Shown piece by piece: positions 37,181-42,422 of a stretch of 64,000 nt of DNA. The notes under the pieces are model-generated. The model did not search any database and was not told the origin of the DNA. It saw nothing but the letters and a program-made list of their open reading frames with translations. Position 1 is the first letter of the stretch; each line of letters starts with the position of its first letter. The position numbers and the translations under genes were made by a program. This stretch comes from Adhaeribacter soli (lineage in GTDB: Bacteria; Bacteroidota; Bacteroidia; Cytophagales; Hymenobacteraceae). The DNA lies in assembly GCF_008727925.1 (NCBI RefSeq), contig NZ_VTWT01000007.1, positions 186,001 to 250,000 on the forward strand, written 5' to 3'.

Positions 37181-37222
37181 CCTGTCATCCTGAAAGGATC
37201 TTGTGCGTTCGTAGCAGAAAAC
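37181..37222. repeat. TGTCATCCTGAA repeat, upstream copy (direct repeat 1)
   Basis: 42 bases are identical to 37600-37641 in the same orientation, and similarity continues more loosely (AGTTAAAGGCTGG) up to the start of the GIY-YIG gene. Confidence 0.85.
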
Positions 37223-37251
37223 TGAAATGCTGCCAATCCAGTTAAAGGCTG

Positions 37252-37590
37252 GTGAAAGAACATCAATACTTCATTTATATAACCTGTAATCCGGGCAGAA
37301 CGGTGTTGTATGTAGGCGTTACCAACAATCTGGAGGTCCGGTTAGAAGAACACCGGCGCAATAAAGGAAAACCTGAAACATTTGCCGGCAGGTACTACTG
37401 CTATAAGCTGCTTTATTACGAACGGTTCAAATACATCAACTACACAATCAGCAGAGAAAAAGTGCTGAAGTTAATGAGCCGTCAGGATAAAGAAGCCCTT
37501 ATCAGAACTGAAACAATCCAAAGATGGAATTTCTCAATATCTATGGTTAGCCTTAATAGCGGTTGTGGTGAGCAAGTAGTTAATAAATAA
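37252..37590 (+). CDS. GIY-YIG domain nuclease-like protein bracketed by repeats
   Basis: The 112-residue protein has a GIY-YIG core (FIYITCNPG...TVLYVGVTNNLEVRLEEHRR, residues 7-37; the second motif is YVG), AGRYYCYKLLYYERF and REKVLKLMSRQDKEALI, typical of the small UPF0213-like single-domain GIY-YIG family. These are predicted DNA endonucleases or structure-specific nucleases. A GTG at 37252 is the start; no ATG is available. Direct copies of a 42-base repeat lie on both sides (37181 and 37600). The C-terminus after residue 95 (SISMVSLNSGCGEQ) looks degenerate compared with family members. Confidence 0.75.
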   Translation: MKEHQYFIYITCNPGRTVLYVGVTNNLEVRLEEHRRNKGKPETFAGRYYCYKLLYYERFKYINYTISREKVLKLMSRQDKEALIRTETIQRWNFSISMVSLNSGCGEQVVNK

Positions 37591-37599
37591 GCTCCCTTC

Positions 37600-37742
37600 C
37601 CTGTCATCCTGAAAGGATCTTGTGCGTTCGTAGCAGAAAACCGGAACGTTGGCAATGAAGTTAAAGGCTGGAGAACATACCCTTCGGGCTAACCTTTCTA
37701 CCAGCCGCCGACGAGGTTTTTCACTGGCGTTCAGAATGACAA
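37600..37742. repeat. TGTCATCCTGAA repeat, downstream copy (direct repeat 2), with inverse TTCAGAATGACA end
   Basis: It begins with CTGTCATCCTGAAAGGATCT and ends with GGCGTTCAGAATGACA, so the ends are imperfect inverted repeats (TGTCAT...ATGACA). The first 42 bases repeat 37181-37222. Confidence 0.8.
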
Positions 37743-39738: not shown

Positions 39739-39846
39739 TATTTGGTAGCAAGTATCAGGTATCAAGTATCAGGACTTTTTTCAGCAGGAAACATACCTGT
39801 CGCTGGCTATAATTACCGAATGGAATTCTAAAGGCTGCGAAGCAAA

Positions 39847-39942
39847 GTCCCCCTTTGGAGGGGGTAGGGGGAGGACTTCACGCATTCCCGGAAAGAATTC
39901 AATTAAAGTAAAACCCTACCCCAATCCCCTCCAAAGGGGGAC
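39847..39942. repeat. G/C-rich dispersed repeat, paired arms
   Basis: GTCCCCCTTTGGAGGGGGTA begins the left arm (39847-39876), and its inverse CCTCCAAAGGGGGAC ends the right arm (39914-39942). Each arm also contains its own short dyad. Confidence 0.85.
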
Positions 39943-40020
39943 ATCAAAATAAATACTCAATGGAATTACGTCTTGGATTCAGTTCTGATTTTTAATTCCT
40001 GATTTCTAATTAAAAGAAAG

Positions 40021-41038: not shown

Positions 41039-41045
41039 TCTGTTT

Positions 41046-41122
41046 TGCCGTTGTTGGTGTTTTTACCAATAACTTAAGAGTGCAGGAGCTAAAAATTATT
41101 GGTGAAAACACCAATAACGGCA
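41046..41122. repeat. GCCGTTGTTGG inverted-repeat element, copy 1
   Basis: The left arm TGCCGTTGTTGGTGTTTTTA (41046-41072) is the inverse of 41096-41122 at 25 of 27 positions. The centre contains GTGCAGGAG. Copy 2 at 42290-42364 has the inverse centre. Confidence 0.8.
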
Positions 41123-41137
41123 GCAATTCTAAATTAG

Positions 41138-41249
41138 GCTGTCATGTTGAGCGATAGCGAAACAACTCGTTGGCGGGAGGAACTACTGCTACCTCCTGCT
41201 TTGCTGCTGAGAGCCGACAAGATCCTTCACTAACGTTCAGGATGACAGC
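41138..41249. repeat. TGTCAT...ATGACA element, MITE-like
   Basis: GCTGTCAT (41138-41145) and ATGACAGC (41242-41249) bound a 112-bp element whose right half (GACAAGATCCTTCACTAACG) is the inverse of the type seen at 37600. It contains no frame. Confidence 0.65.
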
Positions 41250-42077: not shown

Positions 42078-42112
42078 GAATCAGTAACTGACGTTATGCA
42101 AGGAGGAGAAAA

Positions 42113-42215
42113 GTCCCCCTTTGGAGGGGGTAGGGGGAGGACAGGAGAATTATTTGATTTTTAAAGGAGATCAAATAAAGTAAAAATCCTCCCCCTACCC
42201 CCTCCAAAGGGGGAC
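42113..42215. repeat. G/C-rich dispersed repeat, paired arms with inner stem
   Basis: Left arm 42113-42142 and right arm 42187-42215 are inverse at 29 positions without a gap. Inside, TTATTTGAT and ATCAAATAA form a second stem, so the whole could fold as one long hairpin. Confidence 0.85.
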
Positions 42216-42289
42216 CTCAAAAAACTTGCGCTACGTCAGTCATATTTAGCCTAATAGAAATTAATTTGAAGTAAGTTTGCTGTTGTTTG

Positions 42290-42364
42290 TGCCGTTGTTG
42301 GTATTTTCACCAACAACATAACTCCTGCACTACAAGGTTGTTGGTGAAAACACCAACAACGGCA
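42290..42364. repeat. GCCGTTGTTGG inverted-repeat element, copy 2
   Basis: Arms 42290-42317 and 42337-42364 are inverse at 27 of 28 positions. The centre CTCCTGCAC is the inverse of the centre of copy 1. Confidence 0.8.
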
Positions 42365-42422
42365 AAAGGCGGCTTTGGATAGCATAGCCCATTAGCACAT
42401 TAAAAAATTAGCACATTAAAAA

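Follow-up and report, generated by a model that had tools for sequence, protein, structure and literature searches.

A small gene for a GIY-YIG nuclease lies between copies of a short repeat in the genome of Adhaeribacter soli. This arrangement raises two questions: (i) whether the nuclease and the repeat belong to each other, and (ii) whether they move together. We addressed them in a 64-kb stretch of DNA (the window), in the host genome, and in genomes of relatives and of distant bacteria.

A nuclease gene enclosed by repeats

The first-pass annotation placed a 42-base direct repeat around the gene, and 42 identical bases are indeed present at 37181 and 37600. The looser similarity that it described as ending at the GTG start codon is a direct repeat of 76 nt (89%) that reaches the GTG at 37252. 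The whole element (37183-37741, plus strand) consists of a left REP, the GIY-YIG gene, an internal REP, and an inverted right REP, with ends TGTCATCCTGAA...TTCAGAATGACA. The left repeat, R1 (37183-37216, plus strand), has a TGTC tag, the hairpin ATCCT-GAA-AGGAT at 37187-37199, and the tail CTTGTG. The gene (37252-37590, plus strand) encodes 112 aa from its GTG start, with AAAGG shortly upstream. The internal repeat, R2 (37602-37676, plus strand), has the 5' leader of R1 without the gene start. The right repeat, R3 (37707-37741, minus strand), is of the type that surrounds another GIY-YIG gene of this genome (L001). Because the right boundary is this inverted third repeat, TTCAGAATGACA, ending at 37741, the element begins and ends in inverted repeats, TGTCATCCTGAA/TTCAGAATGACA (TGTCAT...ATGACA), around 559 bp. 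R2 and R3 make up a 140-bp head-to-head dimer without a gene, and its leader duplicates the gene's own as far as the start codon, where GTG becomes GAG. Allowing one mismatch, TGTCATCCTGAA occurs six times in the window (0.14 expected; none of 100 shuffles reached six).

Related elements had also been noted near 41138-41249. They proved to be a second head-to-head dimer of related repeats, gene-less and of the L001 type, at 41140-41247 (repeats at 41141-41174, plus strand, and 41213-41246, minus strand). A 33-nt similarity to the nuclease gene at 41170-41202 may be a gene fossil; it also overlaps REP tail sequence. Other repeats occur nearby. GTCCCCCTTTGGAGGGGGTAGGGGGAGGAC forms inverted pairs at two intergenic sites of the window (39841-39949 and 42107-42222), and orthologous spacers of relatives are filled by similar CCCCTCTCC...GGAGAGGGG pairs. 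The palindromic repeat GCCGTTGTTGGTGTTTTTACCAATAAC is present in two mutually inverted copies (41043-41122 and 42275-42367).

The predicted protein matches the GIY-YIG domain of Pfam (PF01541, E 1.7e-11) and has all of the conserved aligned residues Y9, Y20, G22, R30, and E69, of which Y20, R30, and E69 are invariant across 48 aligned sequences. It thus has the domain and the conserved Y, R, and metal-binding E of the GIY-YIG superfamily. An alignment-based fold model (pLDDT 83, confident over residues 1-88) was used and a single-sequence fold (pLDDT 39) was discarded. With this model, Foldseek ranked 1zg2 (UPF0213 protein BH0048) best, followed by Slx1, a structure-selective nuclease, at weak E-values (2.7e-3). 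A sequence search against solved structures found BH0048 and EF2693. The UPF0213 or bacterial Slx1-like proteins (1zg2, 1ywl) are thus the nearest solved sequences and the top fold match, but these entries are titled merely as hypothetical UPF0213 proteins, with no linked repeat, whereas the window protein sits among REPs. Identity as a group I intron or homing endonuclease was rejected (TIGR01453, 18.7 bits against a cut-off of 56), and a search of a defense-system library gave marginal matches at most.

Five GIY-YIG matches were identified in the host genome: three standalone genes and two longer proteins, of 602 and 481 aa, whose length marks them as the UvrC and DnaQ-fusion types. The other two standalone genes also lie inside inverted repeats, L001 in TGTCATCCTGAGCG..AGCGAAGGACCTCGTCGGC and L002 in CGTCATCTCGACCGCAGGGAGAGATCTC. 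Of the three standalone genes, the window copy scores lowest for GIY-YIG and is divergent at its C-terminal end; it may therefore be decaying. Repeats of both types at the ends of the element are dispersed in the genome. The 22-mer TGTCATCCTGAAAGGATCTTGT, of the window (R1) type, has 33 near copies at up to three mismatches, and the L001 type has 121; reversed-pattern controls gave 0 for each. The sister genome examined, from one congener without the L001-type nuclease, holds 8 copies of the latter.

Hairpin repeats and the genes they flank

Across loci the repeats follow one plan: a (C/T)GTC tag, AT, three variable bases, and then their complement. The base preceding GTCAT is T in 157 cases, C in 70, G in 22, and A in 12. 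The 5-nt stem complement is present in 181 of 282 arms; when bodies were shuffled between loci, a mean of 27 and a maximum of 40 were found. As 38 stem types occur, the two halves of the stem covary, and a joint switch (CCT..AGG to GTT..AAC) is seen inside the host genome. Distances between the stem halves vary widely among arms.

These features recall the CGTC-REPs, defined in 2013 in five phyla (Di Nocera et al., PMC3733652). Shared are the unpaired tag (CGTC, TGTC, or CCTC), a stem beginning with AT, and head-to-head dimers, and organisms in common are N. aromaticivorans, A. lipoferum, S. meliloti, and Neisseria. The listed dimensions are a stem of 8-9 bp and a loop of 4-5 nt (PMC3733652); the window repeat has a 5-bp stem and a 3-nt loop, and proteobacterial repeats near GIY-YIG genes look canonical. 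Judged by its tag and stem, the window repeat belongs with the CGTC-REPs, as a hairpin tagged TGTC. CGTC-REPs were said to be apparently without a dedicated transposase (PMC3733652), whereas here they flank GIY-YIG genes, and the GIY-YIG enzyme is probably their dedicated partner.

The tie between small GIY-YIG genes and repeats with TGTCAT/ATGACA ends, proposed from this one locus, is strongly supported elsewhere by enrichment over both shifted positions and other genes. We used a loose test, which asks for GTCAT on the left and ATGAC on the right, each within 300 bp of the gene, and a strict test, with a hairpin on both sides, both facing outward. In 60 genomes of Hymenobacteraceae, 49 of the 68 standalone GIY-YIG genes among the matches listed pass the loose test, against 5 of 135 shifted positions (Fisher p about 1e-25), and 22 pass the strict one, against 0 of 135; 19 of the 68 fail even the loose test. 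A second set of 80 named loci comes from Bacteroidota, Acidobacteria, Verrucomicrobia, Chloroflexi, Planctomycetota, Patescibacteria, Clostridia, Fibrobacter, and others. Here the loose test is passed by 70, against 10 of 144 shifted positions (Fisher p about 1e-35), and the strict test by 44, against 1 of 144. The loci counted are not mutually independent. Records of a plasmid collection extend the gene set to Rhizobiaceae, Azospirillum, Aeromonas, Photobacterium, Planktothrix, and Neisseria, and many of these genes are flanked by textbook CGTC repeats (e.g., CGTCATTCCCGCGCAGGCGGGAATCCA). In a record of Neisseria gonorrhoeae, a homologous gene is found amid CGTC repeats of the dRS3 type.

Could small genes and REPs keep company simply because both are intergenic? 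Some of the shifted control positions lie inside genes, where REPs seldom occur, and this favors such passive company. Yet the repeats face outward on both sides, their stem pairing is clade specific, none of 24 long UvrC/DnaQ-type GIY-YIG genes is flanked by repeats, and RAYT genes of the same family genomes, also short and intergenic, have no GTCAT flanks (0 of 29). Chance association was rejected on the enrichment over all three controls, and we give it next to no credence. The RAYT count bears equally on the idea that RAYT (Y1 HUH) transposases mobilize the repeats, with the GIY-YIG gene incidental. RAYTs do occur in most genomes of the host family, but they carry other inverted repeats. 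Moreover, one genome without a Y1 match (G024) carries two kinds of CGTC-type repeat, in 61 and 63 copies, and another (G001) also has no Y1 match. RAYTs were rejected as the repeat's partner, and this explanation seems to us very improbable.

Two further arrangements were observed in this survey. On plasmid p1 of Planktothrix agardhii (L135, 1492-1776), a GIY-YIG gene accompanied by tandem TGTCATTCTGAG repeats has an MmeI-type restriction gene on one side and DISARM drmA on the other. L211 and L225 are two GIY-YIG genes of a single locus, separated by about 1 kb.

Pairing, copy number, and orthologous sites

The type of repeat follows the type of nuclease. Protein distance correlates with stem distance (Mantel r 0.48, p 1e-4), as it does with permutation confined to genera, and among the matches listed the nearest protein in another genome has the same stem in 38 of 42 cases, against a baseline of 28%. 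The closest relatives of the window protein among these matches, 60-66% identical and from other genera, have the same unusual short hairpin. Among the best seven, six have repeats of the GTCATCCTG(A/G)AAGGA type in every flank with a scored paired arm; the remaining one, L103, has TGTCATCCTGGAAGGATCT.

Copy number also follows the nuclease. Of 60 genomes, the five with an ATGTC-type nuclease among the matches listed rank highest in their count of the cognate repeat. The ATTGC repeat is present in 8 of 8 genomes with its cognate nuclease among those matches and in 8 of 52 others. Inside single genera the copy-number p values are weaker (0.007 in genus 4 and 0.0002 in genus 5), and one genome (G025) has 134 repeat copies and no cognate nuclease among the matches listed, with some other genomes similar. 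Since nuclease and flank are physically linked, the pairing and copy-number correlations could be partly due to shared descent.

Alleles lacking the element had been proposed as a check, and both gene-less and element-less alleles were found in relatives. The two flanks of each of four elements were joined and used to search 111 genomes of a single genus. One orthologous locus holds a full element in G105, a gene-less head-to-head dimer in G066, a remnant in G154, and nothing in G138, G076, and G071. In Azospirillum lipoferum a unit lies between sufB and sufC that is absent in all five relatives examined. Direction of change aside, orthologous sites thus show presence/absence polymorphism. At the site of the window element, one congener lacks the element and has an unrelated intergenic stretch instead of a clean empty site. 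Junctions were sought at the nucleotide level in Azospirillum and Hymenobacter-type genomes, where the spacers are too diverged to be read.

Head-to-head dimers of 64 bp are common in one host repeat subtype, and many plus-then-minus pairs occur among the matches listed for the dispersed repeats. A target-site duplication of 2-9 nt was found at 0 of 17 such dimers; their flanks are conserved and the true ends may be further out. The 64-bp dimers (L006-L035) sit within conserved flanks CTTTTC...ATCGTAGTAGTT, so that either the unit that is repeated or its target must extend beyond the dimer itself.

Units or remnants were also noticed at other sites. Different GIY-YIG/REP units in opposite orientation occupy what is apparently the same intergenic region in two congeneric genomes (L002, 1396-1917; L036, 1385-1869). 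The region has a GCAGCCCATCTCTGAGCTGC hairpin in common, which suggests from the sequences that the site was reused. In three genomes of one genus (L051, L087, and L107), different units lie in the same gene-to-gene spacer, through orthology or as a hotspot. On pSymB of Sinorhizobium medicae (L317, 451-593) there is a truncated fossil, a REP with the opening 90 nt of a GIY-YIG coding sequence, and the same N-terminal third was matched in nine S. medicae records.

What the nuclease may do with its repeat

Overall, we consider it highly probable that the standalone GIY-YIG endonuclease recognizes its cognate CGTC/TGTC-REP, that nuclease and REPs form one relocating unit, and that gene-less pairs are its targets or by-products. 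The window protein is most likely a nuclease that recognizes its own REP by site and by structure. It would bind the REP when single-stranded or extruded, with the variable stem supplying specificity, and would cut near the invariant GTC-AT tag. The nuclease and its flanking REPs would be inherited and relocated as a unit, and dispersed gene-less pairs of the same type would be nuclease targets and by-products. Less firmly, repair or recombination at the cuts might copy or move REP ends and so spread them without a classical transposase. Cleavage, a strand preference, and any part in repeat spread are predictions here.

Two accounts of how the repeats accumulate deserve weight. The nuclease may cut REPs in incoming or exposed single strands, as is reported for Ssn of Neisseria in natural transformation, and bias recombination, with REPs building up via recombination and selection and not by nuclease-driven copying. 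The gonococcal homologue among dRS3-type repeats fits this account, as does the finding of no target-site duplication in the 64-bp dimers or at the junctions examined; relocation of units is instead suggested by the orthologous presence/absence, the dimer-only alleles, and the strong differences in copy number among sister genomes. We see recombination control without self-spread as a real possibility, somewhat short of even. Alternatively, the unit and its gene-less dimers could be a mobile element that moves like RAYT/REPIN, with GIY-YIG cleavage replacing HUH transposition. Inverted ends, dimers with a common leader and ends (R2-R3 in the window), empty, dimer, and full alleles at one locus, and the link to copy number all point that way. 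Against this, no target-site duplication was found, at junctions blurred by intergenic divergence, and no GIY-YIG enzyme is known to join strands; we regard a nuclease-driven mobile element as conceivable but doubtful. Bolder still, and offered tentatively, is the view of the nuclease as the engine of a phylum-spanning class of transposase-free mobile DNA, in which cutting of the cognate CGTC-REP hairpins would lead to new copies of REP pairs elsewhere, some including the nuclease gene and some not.

The first-pass annotation had suggested a nuclease-linked spread of repeats, in some ways like RAYT and REP sequences. The link of nuclease to repeat stands, as does the anatomical likeness to RAYT/REP (REPIN) systems: a nuclease gene between REPs, dispersed head-to-head dimers, and covarying pairs of enzyme and repeat that suggest coevolution. 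Spreading by the nuclease does not have the same standing. The systems also differ in enzyme and tag (Y1 HUH and GTAG there, GIY-YIG and GTC-AT here), and the repeats described here have no link to RAYT genes.

A literature search on REPs and GIY-YIG found no paper joining both. Chenal and colleagues (2025, Nat Commun) reportedly described Ssn, widespread GIY-YIG single-strand nucleases that each have their own repeated target, studied in Neisseria meningitidis and said to be tied to natural transformation. Their defining property is reportedly site-specific cleavage of single-stranded, not double-stranded, DNA. We take Ssn to be the published form of the nuclease/repeat system seen here. In both, standalone GIY-YIG genes with widespread homologs have one cognate repeated genomic target per homolog, as association and pairing indicate for the genes here. 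Most likely additional to the Ssn work are the identity of the targets as CGTC-REPs with a covarying hairpin, the position of the gene inside a unit bounded by REPs, the link to copy number, and the control with RAYT genes; site polymorphism may be a further addition.

The many natural nuclease-target pairs may be useful for single-strand DNA tools, and the pairing data predict which nuclease should cut which hairpin. For CGTC-REPs the survey supplies, across many phyla, a concrete candidate enzyme matched to them by clade. Should this enzyme prove to move the repeat as well, it would offer a way for DNA to be mobile with no transposase.
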